From: a virus
Virus record (IMG/VR): IMGVR_UViG_3300047562_002795
Coordinates: 1 to 20,429 of that record
DNA: 20,429 nucleotides
Strand: one strand, 5' to 3'
The notes under the pieces are model-generated. The model did not search any database. It saw nothing but the letters and a program-made list of their open reading frames with translations, and was not told the DNA's origin. A program made the position numbers and the translations under genes. The stretch's first letter is position 1. Every line of letters starts with the position of its first letter. Shown here piece by piece: positions 297 to 20,429 of the stretch.

Positions 297-776
297 ATGG
301 CACTAAATAAAACATATGGTATTAATTTCCCATTTAAGTCGAGTCAACAAGGGGATTATCTTTCACTTACTAAAACGGTTGACGAAGAAGTAAGGGCGGA
401 TTTATTACATTTAATATTAACTAGAAAAGGTAGTAGATATTATTTACCTGATTTTGGTACGAGAATTTATGAATTCATATTTGAACCTATGGACGGTAGT
501 ACGTTTGAATCAATAAAGGACGATATTCGAGATTCAGTAAAAAAGTACATGCCAAATTTAGAAATAGAAGATATAAGTATTCAACCTTACACAGAAGATG
601 AAAGTACAGATATTAATAAGTTAACATTTGAAGAAGAACCATCTGAATATCAGATGTTCGACATATTTAGAACTGCGGGACAAGGTGTTGAAGAATACAC
701 CGCTAAAATAAGGATAGATTATTCCATATCTGATACTACATTTAGTACTAGAGATTTTATAATTATTAATATATAA
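297..776 (+). CDS. 25: Baseplate wedge protein, gp25-like (GPW/gp25 family)
   Basis: A 159-aa protein of the gp25/TssE-like family, which joins the core bundle of the baseplate wedge to the first sheath ring in contractile tails. The diagnostic segment is residues 30-66: EVRADLLHLILTRKGSRYY, then LPDFGT and FIFEPMD, matching the family pattern of an N-terminal helix, a T-x-x-G-S/E-R turn, P-x-FG and an FEP-type end. T4 gp25 is 132 aa; the extra length is mostly an acidic stretch at about residues 98-133. The EPR tripeptide typical of this family is not seen at the expected place, where MPN (85-87) stands. No Shine-Dalgarno sequence precedes the start; the ATG lies 30 nt after the terminator and is the natural N-terminus. 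Its stop codon shares one base with the next start (TAATG), pointing to coupled translation with gp6. Confidence 0.92.
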   Translation: MALNKTYGINFPFKSSQQGDYLSLTKTVDEEVRADLLHLILTRKGSRYYLPDFGTRIYEFIFEPMDGSTFESIKDDIRDSVKKYMPNLEIEDISIQPYTEDESTDINKLTFEEEPSEYQMFDIFRTAGQGVEEYTAKIRIDYSISDTTFSTRDFIIINI

Positions 777-2614
777 TGGCAAATAGAAAAATATCATATA
801 CAGAAAGAGATTTCGAAGGTTTAAGACAGGAGTTAATAAATTATACGCAACAATATTATCCTGAATTAATTAATAACTTTAATGATGCATCAGTATTTTC
901 AGTATTGATGGATTTAAATGCTGCGATAGGAGATAACCTACATTATCATATAGATAGAAGTATCCAAGAAACAGTACTATCATACGCACAACAAAAGTCA
1001 TCAATATTTAATATCGCAAGAACTTATGGATTAAAAATACCAGGAAACAGACCCTCAATAGGTTTAGTCGATGTATCTATAACAGTTCCTGCATATGGTG
1101 ACCAAGAAGATACCAGATATTTAGGTGTACTAAGGGCTGGTTCACAATTTATTGGCGCAGGACAAATTTTTGAAAATCCTAACGATATTGATTTTAGTAC
1201 GCAATATAATTCGGAAGGTTTCCCAAATAGAACAAAAATTCCTAATTTTGATAGTAATAACAAAATTATAAACTATACTATTACTAAAAGAGAGGTCGTT
1301 GTTAATGGGGCAACAAAAATATTTAAAAAAGTTATTAACCCACAAGATGTCGTACCCTTTTACGAATTCTTCTTACCTGAAAAAAATGTTTTAAGTATAA
1401 CTTCAATTATACAAAAAGACGGTACTTCTTTTTCTAGTCCACCCACATATGAAGAATTTATAACAGCACCTAATAAATGGTATGAAGTTGATGCTTTAGC
1501 AGAAAGTAAAATTTTTATTGAAGACCCGACAAAATCATCTGATTCACCAGGTATTAAGGTGGGTGATTATTTTGAAACTGAAAATAGATTTATTAGTGAG
1601 TTTACACCTGAAGGGTACTGTAGAATACAATTTGGTGGTGGGACAACTTCACCCGATGAACAGTTGGCACAATTTTCAAGAACAGGAGTACCATTAAACA
1701 TTCAAAATTATCAAAACAATATCGGATTAGGTCTTACAGTAAAACCGAATACAACATTATTTGTAAAATATAAAATAGGTGGTGGAACACAATCTAATTT
1801 AGGTGTTAATACTATCACACAAATAGGAAACACATACTTTAGTGTAAACGGACCTTCTGACTCTATAAATCAAAATGTTAAACAAAGTTTAAGGTCAAAT
1901 AATGTAACAGCAACTATTGGAGGAGCCAATTTCCCAACATTAGAAGAAGTGAGGAATATGGTGACTTACAATTTTTCCGCACAAAAAAGAGCGGTAACTA
2001 TTAATGACTATAATACTTTAATAAAAACTATGCCAAGTAAATTTGGTTCACCAGCTAAAGCTTCAATAACAGAAGAGGATAATAAAATAAAAATAGAAGT
2101 GTTATCATACGACACCAACGGAAAACTAACTGGATTAGTATCAAACACACTAAAACAAAATATTGCAAATTATTTATCAAATTATAGAATGATAAATGAT
2201 TATATTTCAATATCTAGTGCACAGGTTTTAGATATTGAATTTGAGTTTTCTGTAGTTATGGATTCTTCTGAAAATCAAGGACAAGTTATAACAAACATAG
2301 TGGATAGTGTGAATTCATACATGTCTCCAGTAACAAATAATTTAGGTAAAAACGTAAATATATCCGACATAAGAAGAATTGTTCAGGATGTTCCTGGAGT
2401 CAATACATTGGCAGACTTAAAAGTATTTGGTAAAGTAGGCGGACAATACTCTTCATCTGAAACATCACAAGAGTATTTAGATAGTGAAACTAAACAAATA
2501 AAGTTAGTTGATGATATCATTTTCGCTCAACCAAATCAAATATATCAAATAAGGTTTCCTGAAAAAGATATTAAGGTTAGAGTTAAAAAATTACAGGGAG
2601 TAGAATTCTCGTAA
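776..2614 (+). CDS. 6: Baseplate wedge protein, gp6-like / baseplate J family
   Basis: A 612-aa protein (T4 gp6 is 660 aa) of the baseplate J/gp6 family. gp6 dimers form the inner iris of the baseplate, which opens when the sheath contracts. Visible hallmarks: the N-terminal NDASVFSVLMDLNAAIGD and HIDRSIQETVLSYAQ helices (residues ~37-70), which match the start of J-like proteins; the GGGTQSNLGVNTI loop (~335-350), equivalent to the GG...GN segment of J proteins; the RAVTINDYNTLI motif (405-416), the family's R-x-V-T-x-x-D-Y signature; and a C-terminal domain with DIEFEFSV and DIRRIVQDVPGV, consistent with the dimerisation region. It starts on the last A of the gp25 stop codon without a Shine-Dalgarno sequence. 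Its direct neighbourhood with gp25 is conserved in contractile tails. The following gap of 73 nt is the first break in the tail cluster. Confidence 0.93.
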   Translation: MANRKISYTERDFEGLRQELINYTQQYYPELINNFNDASVFSVLMDLNAAIGDNLHYHIDRSIQETVLSYAQQKSSIFNIARTYGLKIPGNRPSIGLVDVSITVPAYGDQEDTRYLGVLRAGSQFIGAGQIFENPNDIDFSTQYNSEGFPNRTKIPNFDSNNKIINYTITKREVVVNGATKIFKKVINPQDVVPFYEFFLPEKNVLSITSIIQKDGTSFSSPPTYEEFITAPNKWYEVDALAESKIFIEDPTKSSDSPGIKVGDYFETENRFISEFTPEGYCRIQFGGGTTSPDEQLAQFSRTGVPLNIQNYQNNIGLGLTVKPNTTLFVKYKIGGGTQSNLGVNTITQIGNTYFSVNGPSDSINQNVKQSLRSNNVTATIGGANFPTLEEVRNMVTYNFSAQKRAVTINDYNTLIKTMPSKFGSPAKASITEEDNKIKIEVLSYDTNGKLTGLVSNTLKQNIANYLSNYRMINDYISISSAQVLDIEFEFSVVMDSSENQGQVITNIVDSVNSYMSPVTNNLGKNVNISDIRRIVQDVPGVNTLADLKVFGKVGGQYSSSETSQEYLDSETKQIKLVDDIIFAQPNQIYQIRFPEKDIKVRVKKLQGVEFS

Positions 2615-2687: not shown

Positions 2688-5600
2688 ATGCCCAAATCTT
2701 ACAGAATAAGAACCGAACCAGGTGTAGATAAACAAATAAGAGTTAATATCGAACAAGATTTTGATTTTCTTGAAATATTATCTTTAAAATTAAGACAGGA
2801 AGAGGTATATACTAGATTTTGTGCGGATTATGGCGTAGTTGCGGGTCGAGTCATAGCCAACGGAGGATTTGGAGTCCCGAATGTTAATATATCTATTTTT
2901 GTACCATTAAGTGAAATTGATGAAAACAATCCAATAATATCTACATTATATCCATATAAAAGTTTAAGGGATAAAAATGAAGACGGATATCGATATAACT
3001 TATTACCTTATGTTCAAGAATATGATGGACACACACCAACAGGTACTTTTCCTGATAGAGAAGATTTGTTAACGAGAAAAGAAGTTTTAGAAGTGTATGA
3101 AAAATACTATAAATACACTGTTAAAACTAACGATAGTGGTGACTTTATGATTGTTGGAGTACCTTTAGGCGTACAAAAAATTGTAATGGATTTAGACCTA
3201 TCTAATATGGGTCAGTTTTCACTGAGACCTGCAGACTTAATAAGAATGGGAATGGGAGTCCCATCACAATTTAATGGACAACAATTTAAATCATCCGAAG
3301 ACATTGATAGTTTACCTCAAATAGTACATAGTGTACAAGATATTGATATATCTTCTTTTTGGGGAGATGGAGATGTATGTGATGTTGGTATAACTAGAGT
3401 TGATTTTGATTTACGTGACCTAGGTATTGAAATACAACCACATAGTATTTTTATGGGCTCAATGTTCTCAACTACAGAACAAGATTTTTTAAGAAAAAAT
3501 TGTAAATCTAAAAGTGACACAGGTAATCTTTGTGATACTGTTGTTGGGCCTGGTCAAATAATTGCAATAAGACAAACAATAGAAGTTGATGAAAATGGTG
3601 ACCCAATACTTGAGGAATTCAAAGTTGAAAATAACGGATATGTAATTGATGATAACGGAACTTGGTTAACTGAGTTACCTATGAACGTTGATTATATTAT
3701 AACCAATGAATTTGGAGAACAAATCATATCACAAGACCCAAGTGTGGGTATACCAACAAAAGGTAGGTATAGATTTAAAATCAAATGGATGGATGAATCT
3801 GGTTTAGATGCTGATGTGATGAGGGCTTCGTATCTGGTACCTAATATTAAGGAACACGGATGGTCAGGGTCACAAACTTCTAATAGACCCAATGAGGATG
3901 TTATGAATAAATCTTATGCATTTTCTTTAAATTGGGAAGATTATTACGATAAAGAAAGTGCTATAAATTGTCACGATACATTTTATGAATTTTATTATAA
4001 TAAAGTTTATACTGTAGCTTCACATATAGACAGATTTAAATGGGGCTCAAACAGGGCTAGACATTTAGGTATAAAAGAAATAACAGATAGAAGATGCCAA
4101 TCAGAAGTTAATAGAATGCCAATTAATGATGGGCAGAAAAATTTTGACTTTTTATTTTTCGTATTTAATTTACTACTAACAATTGCAGGTTTTATTATAA
4201 ATGCCTTAATACCTGTTATACATATAGCTCTTTGGATTTATGATTTTATTATGAAAGTTGTTATTGCGGTAATAAATTTCATAAACAGAATAATAATAAG
4301 AATATGTGGCGCGATATGTGGTTCATGGGTTTTTTCTGGATTAAATTTTTGTGATACACCTTGTGAAGATAGAGGAATAGATGTTCCTGAAGAGCCTGAG
4401 GGTAAAGGTATTTCACTACCTTCGATGTCTTTTCCCGATTGTGAGGCCTGCCCATGTGAGTCTGATAATTTAACTACGGATAGTGGTGACCAATATATAT
4501 CATCTTTAGTAAATCAGTATTATGTGCCAAATACATCGGCACTGATTAATATATCAAGCAGAGACTCATATGTTAATTTTAGCACTTGTGAAACAACAGA
4601 AGAATATAATGCCGCTAAGATAACATTTTTAGCGGGTTATGATATCGCGGATGAATTTAATATTGTTGATGAAATAGTGCCTTCATCAGAAATACAAGAT
4701 GCGTGTGAGCAATGTGATGCGGGAGGCGTAGGTAGTGATGCGTATTGTAATATATGCAACGCTTATGAAACAGGACTAAATGATTCTAACTTTATATATT
4801 ATAGAGATAAAAAATTTTATAAAAGTCCTGTTTACATTAATTATTTTAATTGGAGTAATATTAGTGAAAATTTTGGTATTGCATCAAACCAAGTATTAGA
4901 TAGTTTAGTTACTCAACAGTTTACATCATCGCCTAATTATGCCGTCGATGGACTTAGGTCCGACCTAAACGTAACACTATCTCAATCACTTAACTTGATG
5001 AATCAGAGGTCACAATATTTTGTTGAGGCAACTGACGATACTGCACCAAGTAGAATAAGAGTTAAAGTAAAAAATCAAAATTTTTCTAATGATGGTTTAT
5101 CGGGTCTAGGCGGTGATGGAGGAGGACCAGGCGGTGGGTCAGGCAATTTAAATTACTATGAAGACCAACCATTAATATTAATATTTGACGCTAGTGTTAA
5201 TATTACTGCCGGTCAGTTATTAACTTTTAATGAGACTGAAAATTTAGAAGACCCTAATTTTATAATACCTCCTGATGATATATTATATACAGGAATTACC
5301 GTAACAAATGATAATATCATTACTATGGATTCTGAGTACAATGGTCAAGTAGGGATTAAATGGGTCACCGGACAAGGACAAACAATCTTTGGGCCAATAT
5401 TAAATCCACAAGAAACTTATGTAATACCTGGTTGTGTTAAATACAATAGTGTTTCTACCATCGGAGTACCTTCTGGTGGTGATACTAATTTAGTCACTAT
5501 CATACCCGGAAGTACTTGTACAATACCAACAACTTCAGGATATACAGAATATAATGAAAATTCTTATATAACAAAAACAATAAGTTGGATTGATTGGGAA

Positions 5601-8288
5601 GGTAACATTCAAACTACAGATTTAAATTTATTTAATGATAACCCTGATAGTACATATAAATTTAGAACAGGTGTAGAGTACTTCCAAGTCATTACCGCAC
5701 ATACTCTAAGTTATTTTATACCTTGTAACGAATATGGTGATGACCCTAATTGTGATAACATAGAGAATAATATACAAGGAGGACAATGGTGGCAATTTGC
5801 AAATAATATATTTAGAAAATTCTTAATTAATCGAGCCCAAACATACTACTGTCAATATGAAAATGGACCATGGACTGCTAAAGGTTGGGATTATTTTTTA
5901 AACAAAGAGAACTTACAAGTTGTAATATTAACTAGAGGTGTTGACCCATGGACACCAAAACAAAGGATAGAATATGACTTATCGATGTTATATGGTTATA
6001 ATAGTTTTAACGTACCAAATAACGAGGCGGTAAGAGTAACAGGAAATTACTTTTTAAACATACCAATACAACCTAATAATGGTGATAATACAGATGATTG
6101 GTACGCAGATTATAAGTCACCCGCACCTCATTTTAGTGTTGACCAAATAGAAGTCGATTTAACATATGGGAATGATACTAATGAATTCGATGTAACATGG
6201 AATGATAATAGTGTTAGTGCTGGTACTGTCGGTAATGTATTTTTCCCTTCATATCTTTATACATTAGATACACCAAATTACAATTTTATACCATTTGAGA
6301 GTAAATCACTAGTCTATTATTCTTCTTTGGATAAATCATTAAATCCTAATAATGATAATATATTTACTAATGTCTTTTATTTTAATGGTGTTGGTGCACA
6401 CAACCGTTATCTCGATTATGATTTCTTTGGAAATCAAGGACAAAATAGATTAGGTCAAAATTTACAAGTTAGATTAGAAGGAGGTACCTTACAAATATCT
6501 GATGTCAGTATTAGTTCTAATCAAATTAGCGGTTTAACACCTACAGAAATATTAGAAATGGATAAACCGCTAAGAGGAGAACCACAGTTTTTAACACCTG
6601 GCGGTAAAAAGACTTTAACACTTTCTATGATTTATAGTGGTTTAACTAGCTCACCGTCAACTATGATTGACGACCCAAGTAGGTTAGTAATTAGAACTGA
6701 TAGATTACCGTCCTCGGATTTAGTCGAAACATTAGATGGATTGGAGGACCCGCACTATAGAATAATGAGAAGGTATATACTAAACCTAAATAACTATTTT
6801 GGTATATACAACATTAATGAAAACGGTGATTTTACAGACTCTATTAATTTATCTGATGACCCTATAACCGCTACAGATGCCACAGGAAATTTAGAAGATT
6901 TAACAGGAGATACGTCTAACCCGTTATATCAGAGTGGTGTTTTAGAAAGTTTTACTTGTGGAGGTATGGTACCATTAACATGTTATTCAGGTAATGGTGA
7001 ATCATTTGCGGTGGAAGACCCTTGTGATGAATCAGGAAGAATGGTTGGTGGGTGTTATAAAATAATACAAAAACCTTATATTAGAACTATTGGTGATGAT
7101 TTAAAAATAGCAAAAGAATGGAGAGTAAGATTAAGATTTATTTTCGCAGCATGTAGAGGAGTTATTGGAGAAATGTTTCAAAATAATTGGATAAACGGTA
7201 CTTTATACATGCCAACATTTCAAAAGTTAAAAGTTTTATCTGGTAATGATAACGAAGTAACAGGTTACAAATATTGTGGTTCACCATTAAACAATGATGA
7301 AACCTCATATAATGGCCCCATTTATTTTAATACTGAAACTAATAGTTTTTATTATAGGTCAACACCATATGGTAACGACACTTTTTATGGACAGACCCCA
7401 TCAAAAATTTATAAGGGACAAAACAAAAAAAATATCTTTTTCCCAACAACAATAATGGAACTTGGGCCAAGAGACGAATTTACCAAACAAGTTTCATTCT
7501 CGAATGAATTTGAAGGTTATATAATAGATAAAATAACCACATCTTCATATAAGGATAATTCAGATATTTTAAATTTATTTATAATTGGAAGATTGGTTAA
7601 TGCATCATTTTTAGGTAGAATATTGGGTGGAATTGGTAGTGGAGATGCAAGTATTAATCAATTATTTAGTAGAGAGGAAGATGGTGGTATTTTTTATGAT
7701 GCAAGAGTTGATGGTGACTACGCTCAGTTAATATCTATTAATTCTGAATTTGGTGTAATTCCGTACATTGATGGTAATTATGGTGACGATATTACAATAA
7801 CAGAAGATAGATTAGGTATATGGTTTAATTCAGATACAATACAAAGAAGAATATTAACAGATGGTACCGTTACCTTTGGAGACCAACCTGATGGGGCAAG
7901 TAGTTATTTCGGTTATGCTAACACACAAGAAGTACCATATTATATGTGGGAACTTAAACCAAAATCAGAGGAAAACTCATACATAGGATTATTTGGTTCT
8001 CAATATAATACATGGTATACTGATGAAATACAATCAACAAAATATCAAGGAGACGACTTCTTTACAGGTAATGATGAAAAATATATGAAACCAAACTATG
8101 GTTATGGTTTAGGTTATATTTATAATAGAAGTGAAGACGACCCACAATTAGATGCAGTTCCTATACAAAATACAAATAGTAACAAATATAAAGTCGGTTC
8201 TCCGTTCCATTTTTATTTCGGACAAAAAAGAGGAAAAAGTGCAATTAATAAGTACATAATAAAATATATTTTTAATAATGTATTATGA
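2688..8288 (+). CDS. 1866-aa structural protein of the baseplate cluster, with internal hydrophobic segments
   Basis: A very long protein of no family I can name. The N-terminal part (about 48-170) resembles a carboxypeptidase-regulatory-like beta sandwich: GRVIANGG, GVPNVNISIFVP, then TNDSGDFMIVGVPLG, interrupted by an insertion of roughly 70 residues. A second module of similar style (about 325-385) contains GRYRFKIKWMD. Residues 486-545 are strongly hydrophobic and could form two or three membrane helices. A cysteine-rich stretch follows: C540, C544, C555, C559, C585, C588, C590, C634, then C673/C676 and C687/C690, which could hold a metal or disulfides. A glycine-rich hinge lies at 806-819. 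The remainder is beta-rich with many Asn, Tyr and Asp, and the chain ends with SPFHFYFGQKRGKSAINKY. Position right after gp6 matches T4 gene 7, but no gp7 similarity is visible, and the gpI-like module sits in a different gene. It overlaps the next gene by ATGA. Confidence 0.7.
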   Translation: MPKSYRIRTEPGVDKQIRVNIEQDFDFLEILSLKLRQEEVYTRFCADYGVVAGRVIANGGFGVPNVNISIFVPLSEIDENNPIISTLYPYKSLRDKNEDGYRYNLLPYVQEYDGHTPTGTFPDREDLLTRKEVLEVYEKYYKYTVKTNDSGDFMIVGVPLGVQKIVMDLDLSNMGQFSLRPADLIRMGMGVPSQFNGQQFKSSEDIDSLPQIVHSVQDIDISSFWGDGDVCDVGITRVDFDLRDLGIEIQPHSIFMGSMFSTTEQDFLRKNCKSKSDTGNLCDTVVGPGQIIAIRQTIEVDENGDPILEEFKVENNGYVIDDNGTWLTELPMNVDYIITNEFGEQIISQDPSVGIPTKGRYRFKIKWMDESGLDADVMRASYLVPNIKEHGWSGSQTSNRPNEDVMNKSYAFSLNWEDYYDKESAINCHDTFYEFYYNKVYTVASHIDRFKWGSNRARHLGIKEITDRRCQSEVNRMPINDGQKNFDFLFFVFNLLLTIAGFIINALIPVIHIALWIYDFIMKVVIAVINFINRIIIRICGAICGSWVFSGLNFCDTPCEDRGIDVPEEPEGKGISLPSMSFPDCEACPCESDNLTTDSGDQYISSLVNQYYVPNTSALINISSRDSYVNFSTCETTEEYNAAKITFLAGYDIADEFNIVDEIVPSSEIQDACEQCDAGGVGSDAYCNICNAYETGLNDSNFIYYRDKKFYKSPVYINYFNWSNISENFGIASNQVLDSLVTQQFTSSPNYAVDGLRSDLNVTLSQSLNLMNQRSQYFVEATDDTAPSRIRVKVKNQNFSNDGLSGLGGDGGGPGGGSGNLNYYEDQPLILIFDASVNITAGQLLTFNETENLEDPNFIIPPDDILYTGITVTNDNIITMDSEYNGQVGIKWVTGQGQTIFGPILNPQETYVIPGCVKYNSVSTIGVPSGGDTNLVTIIPGSTCTIPTTSGYTEYNENSYITKTISWIDWEGNIQTTDLNLFNDNPDSTYKFRTGVEYFQVITAHTLSYFIPCNEYGDDPNCDNIENNIQGGQWWQFANNIFRKFLINRAQTYYCQYENGPWTAKGWDYFLNKENLQVVILTRGVDPWTPKQRIEYDLSMLYGYNSFNVPNNEAVRVTGNYFLNIPIQPNNGDNTDDWYADYKSPAPHFSVDQIEVDLTYGNDTNEFDVTWNDNSVSAGTVGNVFFPSYLYTLDTPNYNFIPFESKSLVYYSSLDKSLNPNNDNIFTNVFYFNGVGAHNRYLDYDFFGNQGQNRLGQNLQVRLEGGTLQISDVSISSNQISGLTPTEILEMDKPLRGEPQFLTPGGKKTLTLSMIYSGLTSSPSTMIDDPSRLVIRTDRLPSSDLVETLDGLEDPHYRIMRRYILNLNNYFGIYNINENGDFTDSINLSDDPITATDATGNLEDLTGDTSNPLYQSGVLESFTCGGMVPLTCYSGNGESFAVEDPCDESGRMVGGCYKIIQKPYIRTIGDDLKIAKEWRVRLRFIFAACRGVIGEMFQNNWINGTLYMPTFQKLKVLSGNDNEVTGYKYCGSPLNNDETSYNGPIYFNTETNSFYYRSTPYGNDTFYGQTPSKIYKGQNKKNIFFPTTIMELGPRDEFTKQVSFSNEFEGYIIDKITTSSYKDNSDILNLFIIGRLVNASFLGRILGGIGSGDASINQLFSREEDGGIFYDARVDGDYAQLISINSEFGVIPYIDGNYGDDITITEDRLGIWFNSDTIQRRILTDGTVTFGDQPDGASSYFGYANTQEVPYYMWELKPKSEENSYIGLFGSQYNTWYTDEIQSTKYQGDDFFTGNDEKYMKPNYGYGLGYIYNRSEDDPQLDAVPIQNTNSNKYKVGSPFHFYFGQKRGKSAINKYIIKYIFNNVL

Positions 8289-11906: not shown

Positions 11907-12815
11907 ATGGCGTTAGGAACATATGGAACAATAAAACCGGCTAACATGTCTCCGGAAGATGTGGAGATTATCTTAAACTACACACCATCTAGAGACCAAA
12001 CTAGTGAGTTTGAATTAAAAAAGTTAAACGCATCTGACGTACTAACACCATACTATCATAATGAAAGTACGGGAGGTAACCCTAACGTTGAAATTTTGGG
12101 TGGTTTATATAATTTAACTTTACCTACTGAAGATTTTAATAGAATAGGTATATATACTCTTTATCTAAGACCTGCAGAAATTAGAACGACAATAAATGAT
12201 TGTGGAGTGTTATCTGCATTACCTAATGTAAAAGGAATAATTATAAATTTAAGTGATGTCCCATCACAATATAGAAACAAATTTATAAATCAGGGATTGG
12301 TCGGTTTTAGGGTTGAGTATCTAAATGACGATGGCTCCAAGATACAAAATTTTTATAGAATTATAACTTCATCTTTTTTCTGCGAACCCGTAGTAACTAA
12401 CCTAACCAACAGTTCACAAAAGGCTATAAGATATAGATACGTTGAACAAGGTAGTGACTTAGTATTTTGTACACTTTCACCATCAAGTGCACCTTCAAAT
12501 AAGCCAAACGCTACACCTTTTATAGGACAACCTAACCAAAATATAATAATTTCAAACTCATATTTTAACCCGATAAGTTTAGATATCGAAATTGCTGAAC
12601 ACGATGTGGATACATTGGCTATCGCTCTTTACGGTAATCAAACTAAGAGTATTGAAGATGGTATTTACACAATCTATGATAATAACAATAATATATACAG
12701 ACAATACAACTTATATGAAATTCGTGATGAGTTTAACAACCTATTGTTTGAAGTTAGAGAAAGTAGAGGTGATAACATAGATTTTAGTAAAAACTTCCAA
12801 AACATCACTAACTAA
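11907..12815 (+). CDS. 302-aa putative virion/baseplate protein
   Basis: No family recognised. The ATG follows the previous TAA by one base. The N-terminal segment MALGTYGTIKPANMSPEDVEIILNYTPSRD (about 1-30) is partly helical; the remainder is beta-rich (IGIYTLYLRPAEIRTTIND, FRVEYLNDDG). The closing stretch, IYTIYDNNNNIYRQYNLYEIRDEFNNLLFEVRES, looks like alternating short beta strands. Three cysteines are present but form no clear metal motif. No signal peptide or membrane segment is seen. Its stop overlaps the start of the gpI-like tail gene (TAATG), so the two are probably made in similar amounts and may act together; I assign only a structural role from context. Confidence 0.62.
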   Translation: MALGTYGTIKPANMSPEDVEIILNYTPSRDQTSEFELKKLNASDVLTPYYHNESTGGNPNVEILGGLYNLTLPTEDFNRIGIYTLYLRPAEIRTTINDCGVLSALPNVKGIIINLSDVPSQYRNKFINQGLVGFRVEYLNDDGSKIQNFYRIITSSFFCEPVVTNLTNSSQKAIRYRYVEQGSDLVFCTLSPSSAPSNKPNATPFIGQPNQNIIISNSYFNPISLDIEIAEHDVDTLAIALYGNQTKSIEDGIYTIYDNNNNIYRQYNLYEIRDEFNNLLFEVRESRGDNIDFSKNFQNITN

Positions 12816-15754
12816 TGGCCGATAACAAATATAGATACCCACCGGCCCCACCTAGCGGTAGAGGAACATTTTCAGACGATTTAGTTGGTCTGCAAATTGT
12901 GGGTGCGGGAGGTTTAACTCAGGGTAACTTTGAGTTTACGACAAATGTCGTAGAAAAGGTAAACCGAAAGTTTAACTTGGGAGTCTTTTCTAATCCAATC
13001 TCATTGGAAAATCTAGAGGTTGAGTCAATACAAAAGGCAAAAGAGATAATTGCAAAAGATTTCAGAGTTTATCCAAACTATGACTTATCTCAAATTACGA
13101 CTTTTAATCTATACGGTTCTTTACAAAAAAGAATGTCCGCATCTGTTACAAGAATTATTAATTTTTTCCCTGCGGCAATAGAAGTAAATTTAAGAAATTA
13201 TAATCTAACTACAGGTTACACTGCGACAAATATATTATTCGATGAAGTAGAAAATGCGACAACGTTTAATGTAGATATCACCAAATTTAAAAACCCATTT
13301 GAAATTGATTATTCGGCAAATGCCGATAGAAATATTTCAGTAAGACCTATGGAGGTCTCACCACTAAGGAACTTAAAAAAGGAATTTTTAAAATATGCTT
13401 TATATGTTGACGACATAAGTACAGAATATAAATTTTTAGATTTTACCCCTACACAAACATTATCTCAGGGAGTGGTGTCTATAACTGTAGAAGGTAATCC
13501 ATTTAGTGGAGAAACTAATAGTGTAAGAAATTTAGTTATTAAACCAAATACTTTTGAAACCGATGTTACGTTCAAAGAGGCGTTTGATGAGGTTGAAGAT
13601 TTTTTATTAAATAGGTTAATAACTCCATTATATACCGCGAAATTTGAAATAATAAGAGAGACAAATGACGGTAAATTTTTTAAATCATATCAAAAAATTA
13701 CGTGGCCTTTAGATGGGTTATGGAATATAGATATAAGAACAACTAATTTTGACGAATACTTAGAAAGTTTAAACAACTTTTCATTAGAAATAGATAGGTA
13801 CAAGACAAATTTAATATCTAGATTTTTAACAACAGGTGCTTTTAAAGATTTTGATACACCTGATAAAAACGTAGAAAAAGTTTTACAATTATACGGAAGA
13901 AGTTTTGATGAGGCCAAGAAGTTTATAGAAGCATTGGCCTATATGAATTCTGTAAATTATATAGTTAAAAATGATATACCATCTGAGTTATTAAAGAACT
14001 TGGCACAGACCTTAGGGTGGGACACTAACATATCTCCAATTACCAATGAAGGGTTTTTAAGTTCAGTATTTGGTAATGGAAGTGCATCTGCATATGAAGG
14101 ACAAAATAGAAGTTTAACGCCAAATGAAATTAACTTTCAATATTATAGAAATTTAATTCTAAACTCCGCTTACTTATTTAAATCGAAAGGTACAAGAAAA
14201 TCTATAGAATCTTTATTAAGATTGATAGGTGCACCGAAGGCTTTAATAGAAATAAATGAAACTATTTATCTTGCAGATGGTCCAATTAATATGACCAACT
14301 TTAATGAGGAGTATAACTCAATATCTGGTGGTACAAAAATAGATATTATTCCCGTTTTGGACCCCTCGGTCGTGTTTAACGTAGAAGGGATACAATATAC
14401 AGGATTTACAACACAAAGTATAAGTAATTTCGTTGATGTTGTTAGGGGAGATTATCCTGTTGATAACAAAGGTTACCCCAAGATGGTTCAACCTACTGAA
14501 GATTATTTCTTTGAAAAAGGTGGGGGATGGTATGAACAAACACCCCAACACAGAACTCCTGAAGAAATAAATGTAACCAACTCAGTTTTTACAGGACAGA
14601 ACCCTGATATACAAACAGTGTTAGAACCATTAACGTATGGTCAAAAATATTTTGATAGATATGAAAATTTTCCAAATATGGATTTGGGATTTAACTTAAC
14701 AAGAGTTTACGACAACAACAAAAGTTGGACCAATACTGAAACAGGGTTAAGAAGAAATGTTGGGGGTGGATATGATGCATATTATCATGTTTCTAATGAA
14801 AAGTTGGTACTTAACGCGAAAAATTTAGATTTAAATCTAAATATGGGGAGGGGTATAATTTACGACATATGGGACATGTCCAAAAAATATAATTATCCAA
14901 TACCGTCGACAGGTTTAACATCACCATATCCATATGTTACCAATACAGGAGTTAATCCAAAACCAAAAGAAAAATCATTTTTTGAATTTGCTCAGACATT
15001 TTATCGAAATATGATTGATGTTAGAAACAGACAGGGTAAGAGTAATAGTATAAGAGGTGCGTATCCGACATTAAGGGCGTTGTATCAGATGTATTTAAAT
15101 TCTGAAGAGGCAGTTAATATACCTTCTAATAAATACACATACCAAAAAATGATTGATTTTACAAACGGTATGGGTGACTATTGGATGAAGTTAGTTGAAC
15201 AAATGATTCCCGCGACTACCATATGGACAGGTGGTCAAAAAATGGAAAACAATGTTTTACAAAGACAAAAAGTAGTTTGGAGAAGACAAAGAGGGTGTGA
15301 GTTTATTATTATACCATGTATACCTTGCACTTACACAGGTCAACTATTTGGATATGATTGTGTAAATCAATTTGTGGAATGTAATGTTAACGTAAGCTCA
15401 TTTCAAGAAATATTAAATAGCTCAATTAATTATATTGTTGGATTAGATGGTTATCAATTAAGTGATTGCCAAACAAATACATTAGAAAGCCAATGGTTCG
15501 TTGATATTAGATTAGATGATGAAGTATTGGCTCAGAGATTATTTTATATAGGTTATGGAGGTACTGATACACCTACAAATAATACATGGTACCAAGGAAT
15601 AGAAAGTGCTTTGCAGTATTTATATCAAAACGGTCTTTATTATACTCTAAACGGAGATACTTTAATGATTTCAAATATAGGTTGCAATAACGATTTTACC
15701 GATAAAACTCTCCAAGTAAACGTTGGGGTTTATGTAAATATTAACTGTGAATAA
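12815..15754 (+). CDS. 979-aa tail protein with a P2 gpI-like module (possible gp7-equivalent)
   Basis: Residues about 328-490 resemble the phage tail protein I family: a helical run with FDEAKKFIEAL and LLKNLAQTLGWD, then YYRNLILNSAYLFKSKGTRK and SIESLLRLIGAP, the K-x-K/S-G-T-x-x-(S/A)-(I/L)-E-x-L-L motif of gpI-like proteins. gpI in simple contractile tails is regarded as the counterpart of T4 gp7, the wedge subunit that clamps gp6 and binds peripheral parts. At 979 aa this protein is several times longer than P2 gpI (176 aa) and close to T4 gp7 (1032 aa). Residues 1-330 are unrecognised, mixed helix and strand. The region before the end contains GDYWMKLVEQMIPATTIWTG and WRRQRGC. From about 845 to the end, a cysteine-containing domain resembles the end of the next protein. 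Both gene ends are TAATG overlaps. Confidence 0.78.
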   Translation: MADNKYRYPPAPPSGRGTFSDDLVGLQIVGAGGLTQGNFEFTTNVVEKVNRKFNLGVFSNPISLENLEVESIQKAKEIIAKDFRVYPNYDLSQITTFNLYGSLQKRMSASVTRIINFFPAAIEVNLRNYNLTTGYTATNILFDEVENATTFNVDITKFKNPFEIDYSANADRNISVRPMEVSPLRNLKKEFLKYALYVDDISTEYKFLDFTPTQTLSQGVVSITVEGNPFSGETNSVRNLVIKPNTFETDVTFKEAFDEVEDFLLNRLITPLYTAKFEIIRETNDGKFFKSYQKITWPLDGLWNIDIRTTNFDEYLESLNNFSLEIDRYKTNLISRFLTTGAFKDFDTPDKNVEKVLQLYGRSFDEAKKFIEALAYMNSVNYIVKNDIPSELLKNLAQTLGWDTNISPITNEGFLSSVFGNGSASAYEGQNRSLTPNEINFQYYRNLILNSAYLFKSKGTRKSIESLLRLIGAPKALIEINETIYLADGPINMTNFNEEYNSISGGTKIDIIPVLDPSVVFNVEGIQYTGFTTQSISNFVDVVRGDYPVDNKGYPKMVQPTEDYFFEKGGGWYEQTPQHRTPEEINVTNSVFTGQNPDIQTVLEPLTYGQKYFDRYENFPNMDLGFNLTRVYDNNKSWTNTETGLRRNVGGGYDAYYHVSNEKLVLNAKNLDLNLNMGRGIIYDIWDMSKKYNYPIPSTGLTSPYPYVTNTGVNPKPKEKSFFEFAQTFYRNMIDVRNRQGKSNSIRGAYPTLRALYQMYLNSEEAVNIPSNKYTYQKMIDFTNGMGDYWMKLVEQMIPATTIWTGGQKMENNVLQRQKVVWRRQRGCEFIIIPCIPCTYTGQLFGYDCVNQFVECNVNVSSFQEILNSSINYIVGLDGYQLSDCQTNTLESQWFVDIRLDDEVLAQRLFYIGYGGTDTPTNNTWYQGIESALQYLYQNGLYYTLNGDTLMISNIGCNNDFTDKTLQVNVGVYVNINCE

Positions 15755-18700
15755 TGGCTTTATATAATTTTACAGCATGTACTAATAGTAATAATATCGG
15801 TAATATCATTGTAAGTGCAGATACTTCGGTAATACCTCCTGCATCAGTCCCACCAATTACGATATATAATCAAAACTTTAGTGGTATGTGTTACACATGG
15901 GATGGTACTACAGCAACTGGTGCTCCTGATTTAACACTTACTTCAGCATCACAATACGACACTAGAGTATGTAGTACTGTTTGTAGAGACGATTTCAGTA
16001 TAAGAATAAGTGGTTGTACAGGACAAGGTACATGGATATTGGGAAATACGTCACCATCATTAACTTATAGTGTTGGAGATTCCATACATTTATCATCATC
16101 AACATTAAACGGATGTTTTGAAGTTATTGATGATGGATATGCCACACAGAGTTATCTTTTGGATTTGGGCGATGATATTACAGGTCCTTATGTTGGTTGT
16201 AGTGGGTGTACTAGTGACTACTGTAACTATCAAGACGTGATGATTCTATTAGATGAGTCAGGTAGTATTAGTTATAGTGAATGGGAATATATGATAAGTG
16301 GAACCACTAACATTGTAAATGGATTAAAACTATCTATGGACTCAAATGCAACTCAAGTAGGTATCATGAGATGGTCTACTTGTAATCAGATTAACACTTT
16401 AGTTGGATTAACTTCAGATTACGATACGGTTTACAACGCATTAACAGGTGCCACCAAATTATATAGTGGTGGTACACAACCATCCAAAGCAATTAGTGTC
16501 GCTTATAGTGCTTTAACAGGTTCTTCTGTAACTGAGGCTGAAAAAAATATAGTTTTAATTACTGACGGAGTATTAACTGATTTTGAAGATGACCAATGTA
16601 GTATTGGTTATAGTACAACACAAATATGTAATAACATAAAGGCTGGAACATATAGTAACGGTCAAGTTATGAAAATCCTAACTGTGGGTATAGGAATTGG
16701 TGCGAATTCAGATGAATTGGCGGCACTTTCATCAGGCTCAGAGTTCTCGTTCGAAGCTAGTGATTTTGAAGTGTTTAGAGATGTTACATCATTATTAATA
16801 CCTGACTTAACTTGTGAAGATACGCCAGACCCTGGTACAATAGATGTTTGGTTAGGTGTTGATTGCTGTGGAATTAATAATGATATATTGATAGGTATAA
16901 ACGACCAAGTACCTATAATACCCTCAACAGATGCAGTAGTATTTAATGGAAACTGTTACTATTTTGATAGTTTAAGTGCGGGTACAATTGATTACTTAGC
17001 TTTAAGTGGTGATGTGGTTACTTGCTCATATAGCGGATGTCCTACCTGTCCAACACCGACACCTACACCAACATCATCTAATACGCCCACACCAACAGAG
17101 ACACCTAACCCAACACCAACAAGTACACCATCACAAACATTAACTAATACACCGACAGAAACACCTAACCCAACACCAACAAGTACACCAACACCAACAG
17201 GTTCCCAATCATGTTATGTCGGAACTACCAATGGTGTATTTCAATATGTTGATTGTTGTGGTGTTGTTAGGAATGGAAATAATGTTGGACAAACTATATG
17301 TGTTAATCCTCTGTATAGTTATAGTGGGATTTTATTATCAACTACGGAATGTAGTACCGAATGTAACCAAGGAGATTTATTATATTCTTTTATTGTTAGT
17401 GGAACTTGTCTGAATAGTAATGGTGGGAGAATAAATATTTTCCCATCTGGAGGAGTTAAACCATATACTATACAAAACAATAATCCAGGTACCCTACCAA
17501 CACTAACAACATATGATTCTTTTATATATACAGGATTAACTGCAGGTACTTACACATTTACTATTAATGATAGTAGTGGTGGAGTAAATCAAACTATCAA
17601 CGTAAATATTAATCTTGAAGGTTGTTTAAGTTTAAGTGCATCAACAACTAATGGTACTTGTGGTAATAATAATGGTTCACTTAGAATTACTGGTGACTCT
17701 TATTCTTTCCCTTATAATTACAAAATTTATAGAAACTCAGGTTTAATTAGTAGTGGTCTTACGTCGAGTAATCCAATTACTATAAATAACTTAAATAGTG
17801 GTAATTATTATGCGGTTGTTACTGATTATGGAGGCTCTAGTGCGCAAACAGAGACTTATACTATTACAAGTGGCACTGCGGTTAATTTTGGATTTACGGT
17901 AACAGGAAGCTCTGTATGTAATAATAATGTTGGTGCCGCCACATTAACAGGTATTACAGGTGTCCCACCTTTTACTTATTTATGGAATGACGGACAGACA
18001 GGTACAACAGCCACAGGTTTAACATATGGGATTAAAAGTGTTATTGTTACAGATTCTAATGGATGTAGTACAACAAAACAAGTTAATATACCTCAAATAG
18101 AATCCTTAGGTGTAGCAAGTTTAACAACAACACAGGCGAGTTGTTTTAATGAAAATGGCACTGCAACTGTTACAATAACAGGAGGAACGTCACCATTTTT
18201 ATATTCCGCAGATACAGGATACGTCTCAAGTTATATAACAAATAGAACTTTTACATTTACAGGTCTTACTGGTAATCACACGATTAGAATTTTAGATTCT
18301 AATTTTTGTGATATAGAAAGTTCATTTAATGTTTCTTCTACTGCTGGATTTAATTCGGTTAGTGTAACTACTGTAGATTCTGCATGTGGAGAGGATGGTA
18401 GTATTAATATATCAGTACAAGGGATAGTTACACAACAAACATATTCTATAACAGGAAGTACAGGAAACACTCAAACATTTACGACTACACAACAAAATCA
18501 CACTTTTATTAATTTACCTACAGATACTTACACGGTTGGTGTTAGTAGTGGTAGTGGTTGTGATTATGTTACGACAGCAACTATTAATAATGTTAATAAA
18601 TTTTTTGTTGAAACACAAACTACAGGTACTACATGTGGAGGTGTAAACGGAATTGTAAATGTTAATGTTACGTCAGGCTCAACACGGTTACAATTACCTT

Positions 18701-19584
18701 TAGATTACATAATAAGAAGAGTCGATACCAATCAAGTAGTTAGTCAAAATATTGATTCACCTTTATCTACAGAAACTGTTAATAATTTAGCATCTGGTAC
18801 TTACAAATTAGAAGTAACAGACTTTAATAGTTGTACAATTACTAAATATTTCACAATTAATAGTAGTTTAGGTATTAATGCTTCAGTACAAAAAACTGAT
18901 TGTTTAATTAGTCCTAATACTGGTAATGCCACTTTAAATATATATGGAGGTGCACCACCATTTACTATAACATGGTCAGATAATGTAAATGGACAAGAAG
19001 GTTATACAGTAAATAATCTTTCAGGAGGAACATACACTGCGAGTGTTACAGACACTAACGGATGTTCCACTTCAGTAAGGTTTGATATTATATGTAATAA
19101 TCGTAGGTCAGTCGGTTATAATTTATACAATGTTTGTGAACAAGACATGATAACTACAGTAGGAAATAAAAGAAGTTTTTACTCTATGTTAAATGAGGCT
19201 TTTTTAGATACTTCTAATGGAAATTTAAATTGTGTTTTAGATACTGCAATATTTACATTAAATTTCACATTAACATCGTCAACTGTATCATATAGTTTTT
19301 CTGAAGATTTTTATACTGGAACTACATTAACTGATGTACCTAGTGATAATTTGTGGGTAACAACTTTAGATAACATCCTTTCACAAATAACAGAATTAAA
19401 ATCTTATACTATCGATTTATTAAATAACAAATACATTTTAGTATCAGATTGTGTTGGAGATGAAGACCCTCTTAAAGGTGCTTACGTTAAATTAGAATTA
19501 TTTATAAATATGGATATTGATTGTGTTACTAATCGTAGTCTTTTAAATTGTTCTCTTGACTTGGAGGCATTCTTATCTAGTTAA
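15754..19584 (+). CDS. 1276-aa mosaic adhesin: cysteine modules, vWA domain, Pro/Thr linker, seven SprB-like repeats
   Basis: A likely fibre or host-recognition protein. Domains in order: two short cysteine modules (about 14-77 and 80-157, ending CSTVC and CSGC); a von Willebrand A domain (about 161-355) with intact metal site residues D167, S169, S171 (DESGS), T241 and D271 (ITDG); a third cysteine module ending CPTC (429-432); a Pro/Thr linker (433-486); a fourth cysteine module (487-540, ending CSTEC); seven SprB-like beta repeats of 75-89 residues (about 543-1115), with phrases such as VTDSNGCSTT and LSGGTYTASVTDTNGCS; and a C-terminal domain (about 1118-1276) resembling that of the upstream 979-aa tail protein. 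vWA domains bind ligands through a divalent cation; SprB repeats are typical of Bacteroidota surface adhesins. No signal peptide is seen, as expected for a virion protein. It starts as a TAATG overlap and is the last gene of the packed block. Confidence 0.82.
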   Translation: MALYNFTACTNSNNIGNIIVSADTSVIPPASVPPITIYNQNFSGMCYTWDGTTATGAPDLTLTSASQYDTRVCSTVCRDDFSIRISGCTGQGTWILGNTSPSLTYSVGDSIHLSSSTLNGCFEVIDDGYATQSYLLDLGDDITGPYVGCSGCTSDYCNYQDVMILLDESGSISYSEWEYMISGTTNIVNGLKLSMDSNATQVGIMRWSTCNQINTLVGLTSDYDTVYNALTGATKLYSGGTQPSKAISVAYSALTGSSVTEAEKNIVLITDGVLTDFEDDQCSIGYSTTQICNNIKAGTYSNGQVMKILTVGIGIGANSDELAALSSGSEFSFEASDFEVFRDVTSLLIPDLTCEDTPDPGTIDVWLGVDCCGINNDILIGINDQVPIIPSTDAVVFNGNCYYFDSLSAGTIDYLALSGDVVTCSYSGCPTCPTPTPTPTSSNTPTPTETPNPTPTSTPSQTLTNTPTETPNPTPTSTPTPTGSQSCYVGTTNGVFQYVDCCGVVRNGNNVGQTICVNPLYSYSGILLSTTECSTECNQGDLLYSFIVSGTCLNSNGGRINIFPSGGVKPYTIQNNNPGTLPTLTTYDSFIYTGLTAGTYTFTINDSSGGVNQTINVNINLEGCLSLSASTTNGTCGNNNGSLRITGDSYSFPYNYKIYRNSGLISSGLTSSNPITINNLNSGNYYAVVTDYGGSSAQTETYTITSGTAVNFGFTVTGSSVCNNNVGAATLTGITGVPPFTYLWNDGQTGTTATGLTYGIKSVIVTDSNGCSTTKQVNIPQIESLGVASLTTTQASCFNENGTATVTITGGTSPFLYSADTGYVSSYITNRTFTFTGLTGNHTIRILDSNFCDIESSFNVSSTAGFNSVSVTTVDSACGEDGSINISVQGIVTQQTYSITGSTGNTQTFTTTQQNHTFINLPTDTYTVGVSSGSGCDYVTTATINNVNKFFVETQTTGTTCGGVNGIVNVNVTSGSTRLQLPLDYIIRRVDTNQVVSQNIDSPLSTETVNNLASGTYKLEVTDFNSCTITKYFTINSSLGINASVQKTDCLISPNTGNATLNIYGGAPPFTITWSDNVNGQEGYTVNNLSGGTYTASVTDTNGCSTSVRFDIICNNRRSVGYNLYNVCEQDMITTVGNKRSFYSMLNEAFLDTSNGNLNCVLDTAIFTLNFTLTSSTVSYSFSEDFYTGTTLTDVPSDNLWVTTLDNILSQITELKSYTIDLLNNKYILVSDCVGDEDPLKGAYVKLELFINMDIDCVTNRSLLNCSLDLEAFLSS
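17095..17190 (+). repeat. Direct repeat in the Pro/Thr linker (two 36-bp copies, 60 bp apart)
   Basis: Copies at 17095-17130 and 17155-17190 differ at a single base (17100 versus 17160), both encoding TETPNPTPTSTP. The 60-bp offset equals 20 codons, so copies could be gained or lost in frame. The linker joins the vWA half to the SprB-like half. Confidence 0.85.
17380..19098 (+). repeat. Seven SprB-like protein repeats
   Basis: Coding region of seven related beta modules in the 1276-aa protein. Each opens with a cysteine a few residues before an N/D-G-x-hydrophobic turn: C552, C636, C722, C797, C878, C961 and C1050, spaced 75-89 residues apart. Each closes with a (L/I)-x-x-G-x-Y-x-(V/A)-x-V-x-D type strand. 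DNA similarity between copies is low, so this is an old duplication array rather than a recent expansion. Confidence 0.75.
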
Positions 19585-19646: not shown

Positions 19647-20429
19647 ATGGCGAATAGAACAATAACGCTATCAGGTATATCAATAGGTGATGATATTTCG
19701 GTAGTTAGTATATATAGTGAAACTGTTAATCCGAGCAATTTAATAGCTTCAGGCGTCACAAAGGCTGAACTTTATTCGGGTTACTCTTTTACTGCAGATA
19801 GTTCTATCAACACATTTAAAATTGTAAGTGATGAACCCTGCGATGTTACTACTACAGTGGTTATAGAAGTAACTTTAACACCAACACCGACTCAAACCAA
19901 CACACCAACCGCAACACCTACAGAAACTATCTCGTTTAGTCAAACACCAACACCGACTCAAACGGTAACTAGTACTCCAACTCAGACAGTCACTAGTACA
20001 CAAACACCAACACAAACCGCAGAAGAAACACCAACTCCAACTCCGACACAAACTGTTACGTCAACACAAACACCGACTCAAACAGTTACCTCTACACCAA
20101 CACAAACAGTTACTTCAACTCAGACACCAACACAAACAGTTACATCAACTCAAACACAAACTGTTACTTCAACTCAAACACCGACTCAAACTGCAGAAGA
20201 AACACCAACTCCAACTCCAACTCAGACGGTCACTAGTACACAAACACCAACACAAACAGTTACCTCTACACCAACACAAACAGTTACTTCAACTCAAACA
20301 CCGACTCAAACGGTAACTAGTACACCGACTCAAACTGTAACATCAACTCAAACACCGACTCAAACTGCAGAAGAAACACCAACTCCAACTCCGACACAAA
20401 CTGTTACGTCAACACAAACACCGACTCAA
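19647..20429 (+). CDS. Putative fibre/stalk protein with Thr-alternating Pro/Thr/Gln repeats (5' part, runs off the right edge)
   Basis: An open frame of 261 codons without a stop before the window ends. Residues 1-77 form a small beta-type domain of unknown family (begins [20 protein letters not shown], single cysteine at about 66). From T78 to the edge the sequence is a low-complexity stalk of T, P, Q, V, S and a few A, E, N in which nearly every second residue is Thr or Ser. Units QTVTST and QTPTQT recur, interrupted by [10 protein letters not shown] at residues 125, 183 and 241. The linker of the preceding adhesin has the same alternating style, so both proteins probably belong to one class of phage surface appendages; such stalks usually space an adhesive domain from the virion. 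The distal part lies outside the window. The ATG has no Shine-Dalgarno sequence but sits in an A-rich leader. Confidence 0.72.
19878..20429 (+). repeat. Pro/Thr/Gln coding repeat with a 174-bp higher-order unit
   Basis: Basic 6-bp (two-codon) periodicity from the alternating Thr codons. A higher-order unit of exactly 174 bp (58 codons) begins at the codons for AEE: 20019-20192, 20193-20366 and a partial third, 20367-20429. Units 1 and 2 differ by one residue in 58 (Q versus P at unit position 46). Part of an earlier unit precedes 20019. The true copy number cannot be judged because the array runs off the edge. Confidence 0.9.

Follow-up and report, generated by a model that had tools for sequence, protein, structure and literature searches.

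A Homologous Domain Shared by a gpI-Like Baseplate Protein and the Adjacent SprB Protein of an Uncultured Contractile-Tailed Phage, with a Possible Role in Fibre Docking

Introduction

How fibres attach to the baseplate has been worked out in only a small number of contractile tails, and hardly at all in phages from uncultured lineages. This question is raised by a 20,429-base fragment of the genome of a contractile-tailed phage, which is an IMG/VR record in full and is called here the window. In this window, two large proteins encoded by adjacent genes, a gpI-like baseplate protein and a protein with SprB repeats and a von Willebrand factor A (vWA) domain, seemed to end in similar sequences. 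An earlier note on this DNA had proposed that both end in the same domain, and that this domain could attach the second protein, described as an adhesin, to the baseplate. What is the relationship between the two protein ends, and what could the pair be for?

The Locus and Its Gene Order

The genes of the window are arranged in the order gp25-like, gp6/J-like, five large ORFs, the 979-aa gpI-like ORF, the 1276-aa SprB/vWA ORF and a truncated Thr/Pro-rich ORF. The two ORFs under study are as previously described, and the main features are as follows:

297..776, + strand, gp25-like baseplate wedge protein (phrog_261, E 3.4e-18)
776..2614, + strand, gp6/J-like baseplate wedge protein (phrog_219, E 1.5e-21; 27% identity over 99% to the Flavobacterium phage immuto baseplate wedge protein)
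12815..15754, + strand, gpI-like baseplate protein, 979 aa (core homologous to baseplate-cluster proteins of Flavobacterium phage immuto and Microcystis phage Mel-JY01)
15398..15751, + strand, shared domain, copy 1 (gpI-like residues 862-979, preceded by a conserved Cys-rich lead-in that starts at residue 823, position 15281)
15754..19584, + strand, SprB/vWA protein, 1276 aa (ORF call; Pfam)
16234..16788, + strand, von Willebrand factor A domain, residues 161-345, in the variable N-terminal region (Pfam PF00092, E 8.5e-16)
17038..17214, + strand, Thr/Pro (TPT) linker from the variable part to the conserved core (from the sequence)
17365..19095, + strand, SprB/Ig-like repeat block of the conserved core, residues ~538-1114 (Pfam SprB, five stretches; column occupancy mostly 1.00 in 51 relatives)
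19174..19527, + strand, shared domain, copy 2 (SprB/vWA protein residues 1141-1258)

No DNA-level match to the window was found among 50,697 phage records. The gp6/J-like protein came closest to proteins of Flavobacterium phage immuto, Microcystis phage Mel-JY01 and an uncultured phage of 484 kb, to which it is 27-28% identical along 99% of its length. These relatives, together with the SprB repeats, make a Bacteroidota host likely. An ORF of 1866 aa (2688-8288), located after the gp6/J-like gene and before the fibre module, had no match in PHROGs.

The order gp25 - J - I - fibre is present, with the gp25-like and gp6/J-like genes upstream of the gpI-like gene and the SprB gene downstream. It resembles the W-J-I-H module of phage P2 (gp25, J, gpI and the fibre gpH), from which the window differs by its five extra large ORFs between J and gpI. 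Residues ~290-482 of the gpI-like protein were homologous to large baseplate-cluster proteins of Mel-JY01 (hhalign E 2.6e-7), immuto (2.5e-5) and LR756508 (5.9e-5). No family of Pfam, PHROG or NCBIfam was above its cut-off with this protein, and the best TIGR02242 score was 13 bits versus a cut-off of 51.85. P2 gpI has 176 aa versus 979 aa in the window, and the hhalign match between the two was not significant (probability 0.1). This alignment, 28 residues long, covers the KGT motif. The KGT-helix region (LFKSKGTRKSIESLLRLIG) was aligned in register with P2 gpI, in agreement with the gpI label but below significance, and the P2 profile was too shallow to decide because the relatives fetched for it were near-identical. 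The name gpI-like, used in the earlier note, is kept on the basis of gene order and distant core homology, since the protein lies below the cut-offs of the curated gpI families.

The Two Proteins Share a Homologous Domain

When the two protein ends were compared as single sequences by BLASTP, an identity of 22% over 72 residues was obtained, with an E of 3e-4 for one comparison. An HMM built from the gpI C-termini alone matched the downstream protein (3.7e-6 in the window, 7e-9 to 4e-3 in relatives), and in the loci it matched only two kinds of ORF, gpI itself and the ORF downstream; a matching result was given by the reciprocal search of gpI with the fibre-copy model. Profile-profile comparison reached a probability of 96.0 (E 4.6e-9) with 23 versus 15 sequences, and of 98.1 (hhalign, E 8.3e-14, ~114 columns) with 59 gpI copies versus 51 fibre copies. 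Control gpI segments short of the domain gave probabilities of at most 5.2 (E >= 0.007), the control segment 761-917, which covers about half of the domain, gave 40.6, and profiles with reversed or shuffled columns gave at most 0.4. The HMM-HMM comparison that the earlier note had suggested was therefore significant, and gpI-like residues 862-979 and SprB/vWA residues 1141-1258 are homologous (hhalign 98.1, E 8e-14).

The landmarks shared by the two ends were real. All four cysteines that had been named occupy matching positions, 27/63/135/156 in the gpI domain versus 31/63/136/160 in the adhesin segment, and two of them are invariant or nearly so in both copies. The first pair (27/31) lies upstream of the stretch aligned by hhalign, yet it is equally spaced, at 13 residues, from SF in both proteins. 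One motif detail had to be corrected, as ISNIGC is S-x3-C and not S-x(1-2)-C. The C-terminal placement also needs correction, as the domain stops 18 residues before the end of the 1276-aa protein. Among 51 fibre relatives it ends at most 5 residues from the C-terminus in 26, whereas in 24 over 20 residues come after it, so it is not strictly C-terminal.

The fibre copy was predicted by AlphaFold2 as helix-strand-strand-helix-strand-strand-strand (H-E-E-H-E-E-E), with a pLDDT of 79-96 in these blocks and a mean of 72 for the segment, lowered by a disordered lead-in and tail. The gpI copy, taken from a full-length model, likewise followed H-E-E-H-E-E-E, with blocks at 70-90 in a model that was poor as a whole (mean 64). 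The order of helices and strands, by which the two predictions were compared rather than by superposed coordinates, was identical, and the shared domain is predicted to be a small alpha/beta domain. A chance or convergent similarity between two unrelated Cys-rich C-termini, to which the low single-sequence identity (22%) might point, is refuted at profile level by the E of 8e-14 with clean controls, the reciprocal searches and the matching predicted topology, and is vanishingly improbable.

No family of Pfam or PHROGs matched the shared domain, and nothing significant was obtained from the PDB by sequence or fold searches, so a known fold was rejected. Its sole significant structural match was A0A6J5LD72 (BFVD, E 5.7e-11), a 714-aa "SprB repeat" protein of an uncultured Caudovirales phage. 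The length of this protein fits the minimal fibre core of 707-724 aa, and it is probably a member of the same family. Homologues of the gpI domain in cells were not found by tblastn among 84,980 bacterial and archaeal genomes, and 50,697 phage records yielded, at the sensitivity of tblastn, no cultured relative with the domain. LR756502 was rejected as a carrier, since its match falls on SprB repeats and the protein is without the domain. Judged by these searches, with no match in Pfam, PHROGs or solved structures, the domain is previously undescribed.

The Two Copies Form a Fixed Pair

A scan of IMG/VR with the gpI-domain alignment retrieved 462 relatives, of which the best 80 were read. The copies were counted over all loci, some of them overlapping on the same contig, for a total of 129 gpI ORFs. 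Exactly one second copy was found downstream in 91 of the 129, located in the next ORF in 82 cases and in the second ORF in 9, and two downstream copies were found in none. The downstream sequence was truncated in all of the remaining 38. Just two of these retain a complete next ORF; their second ORF, which is the one that carries the copy in their relatives, is cut off. At most the two copies, and never a third, were present in each of 16 contigs of 102-309 kb.

In the tree, the gpI copies formed one clade and the fibre copies another (100/100); therefore, the duplication is older than the diversity sampled, and no sign was seen that the copies had exchanged sequence afterwards. At the outgroup loci (Flavobacterium phage immuto, Mel-JY01 and LR756508), a relative of the gpI core was present and both copies of the domain were absent. 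On this sequence evidence, the two copies are paralogues derived from one old duplication, which took place before this phage lineage diversified.

Additionally, a C-terminal extension of ~70-140 residues past the shared domain was observed in four gpI-like ORFs (L093, 5535-8897; L108, 5532-8894; L115, 5535-8894; L015, 8001-11147).

Constant and Exchanged Parts of the SprB Protein

In the protein of the window, the SprB repeat (PF13573) reached 46.1 bits versus a gathering cut-off of 28, and VWA (PF00092) 59.1 bits versus 23.8. Among ten domain-carrying relatives scanned, PF13573 was above its cut-off in eight, below it in L010 (24.4) and not among the matches listed for L004, in which VWA was present too. 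The vWA region of the window protein is common to at most 3 of 50 relatives. The fibre core, composed of the SprB/Ig-like repeats and the shared domain, has ~710-720 residues and was in register in 51 relatives, with near-full occupancy and ~40% mean pair identity. A fixed length and a constant register are expected of a structural part, and the minimal members of the family (707-724 aa) have little beyond this core. The sequences before the core, which in the window contain the vWA region, and those after the domain are common to few or no relatives, with Thr/Pro linkers and further modules following the domain in 24 of 51.

In L010 (10940-14068), L017 (10940-14026) and L049 (8465-11140), an N-terminal module has a gene of its own, located after gpI and before the core. 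The first 77-114 residues of these separate genes match the fused SprB N-termini of L004, L005, L003 and L006 (50-58% identity), and by this match the variable module has undergone fission or fusion.

By its pattern of conservation, the SprB protein is organised like a structural fibre whose tips can be exchanged, and its constant and exchanged parts become visible. The label of adhesin suits only the outer parts, because the protein consists of a conserved fixed-length fibre core with variable, unrelated modules at either end.

Two further observations were made. In L134 (6342-9242), residues 535-564, in the repeat that directly precedes the shared domain, matched Pfam Por_Secre_tail, a T9SS sorting domain (32.4 bits, E 1.1e-7, with no single stretch significant), which is probably an Ig-fold resemblance. 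The truncated ORF at the end of the window (19647-20429) is mostly made of Thr/Pro (TPTQT) repeats, and linkers of this kind are also found between modules within the SprB proteins across the whole group.

Coupled Divergence of the Two Copies

The distances of the fibre domain and the gpI domain were compared in 53 genomes. Once the gpI core and the upstream neighbour of 302 aa were controlled for, the partial correlation was 0.45 (0/500 permutations), and it was 0.29 once the SprB block was also controlled; given the fibre domain, the SprB block added little (0.08). This contrast became stronger when the divergent rows were dropped (0.41 for the fibre domain versus 0.03 for the SprB block) and weaker in a set thinned to 36 representatives (0.24 versus 0.26), in which the SprB block correlates equally well, so the coupling is not cleanly domain-specific. 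The gpI core diverges more slowly (mean distance 0.56) than either copy of the domain (0.91 and 1.00). The correlated distances lend moderate support to a functional coupling of the two copies and fall short of proving contact.

Possible Roles of the Domain Pair

Of the proposal in the earlier note, the duplicated domain is established, and a role of this domain in attaching the second protein to the baseplate is supported indirectly, by the presence of one copy each per genome, the adjacency of the genes, the correlated divergence, the lack of both copies at the outgroup loci examined and the docking of fibres on the last wedge protein known from other contractile tails. In phage E217, the fibre gene (gp46) comes directly after that of the triplex subunit gp45, on which the fibre docks (PMC10329688). 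The window is similar in having a fibre gene after the last wedge gene, docking on the wedge being a feature of E217. It differs in that the E217 fibre grips a gp45 loop by its N-terminus, and no shared domain is described in the available part of that report. In the Bacteroidota system AlgoCIS, the exposed gp7-like part of Alg12 binds fibres, and Alg19 is a putative Ig-fold fibre (PMC8894135); the available part of this report mentions no domain shared by Alg12 and Alg19, and the resemblance to the window is one of description. A dedicated domain that docks another tail protein is also known from the T4gp10-like branching domains of receptor-binding proteins, on which the partner, in a further difference, docks via a conserved N-terminal region or peptide (PMC6872550). 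No gp10-like match to the window domain was found in Pfam or PHROGs, nor was there a significant solved structure.

By analogy with the fibre docking of E217 and AlgoCIS, the pair appears most likely to act as a joint between the wedge protein and the SprB fibre core. The terminal copy of the gpI-like wedge protein would bind the copy that closes the SprB fibre core, the two might form a pseudo-symmetric heteromer or an interleaved ring, and this pairing would hold the fibre on the baseplate rim. That the paralogous domains pair with each other in this way, holding the fibre core on the wedge protein, falls just short of being probable. In that case the core would be attached close to its C-terminal end and would carry the variable modules (vWA and others) outward at the N-terminus or past the Thr/Pro linkers. 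The fibres of known structure (E217 and Milano) dock N-terminally, which argues against such an anchoring, as do the more than 20 residues found after the domain in 24 of 51 relatives and the incomplete specificity of the coupling. The full arrangement, in which paralogous copies of an undescribed domain join wedge and fibre, with C-terminal anchoring, outward N-terminal modules and a polarity reversed with respect to solved phage fibres, is put forward tentatively and is rather doubtful.

Paired retention and adjacency would be accounted for equally well if both copies were bound by a common third partner and the fibre were thus attached without domain-domain contact; this partner could be a bridging protein, a neighbouring fibre or a further wedge protein. 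Several baseplate-region proteins without family assignment are encoded between gp6/J and gpI in the window and could be considered for this function. The domain-domain correlation exceeds that with the 302-aa neighbour and gives no hint of this neighbour as the partner, and a third partner is unlikely.

The domain could instead be used separately in wedge and fibre core, as a structural plug or as a cap for folding or oligomerisation, with copies that never meet. Fibre trimerisation caps are often at the C-terminus, and the domain lies within 5 residues of it in 26 of the 51 fibre proteins. A cap leaves the exclusive occurrence of the pair, the absence of both copies from the outgroup loci and the correlated divergence unexplained, and is quite improbable. 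A surface- or glycan-binding module, present in two copies for avidity at the host surface, would suit a fibre protein with the vWA and SprB modules typical of adhesion and the faster divergence of both copies relative to the gpI core. It is very improbable, however, for a domain that belongs to the register-conserved core, outside the variable modules, and whose copy number is fixed at two.

This new domain family, whose gpI copy was found in 462 IMG/VR stretches and whose two copies occur together at every locus with complete downstream sequence, marks the two presumed sides of the joint from sequence alone. The pair may serve as a test for locating the fibre gene in these phages, and it provides a defined pair of domains of 120-160 residues for binding and structural work.

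In phage Milano, disulfides link the fibres to the baseplate (PMC10811340), and disulfides, either inside the domain or bridging the joint, may also be formed by the cysteines of the shared domain. The coupling of the Cys pairs 13/34 (gpI domain) and 31/136 (fibre domain) looks near-perfect. As support for disulfides it was rejected, because the tree requires just 1-3 changes per cysteine (2-3 for 13/34), too few for the covariation to count as independent support. At residues 13 and 34 of the gpI domain (alignment A5), Cys was present at both positions in 40 of 59 sequences and at neither in 17.
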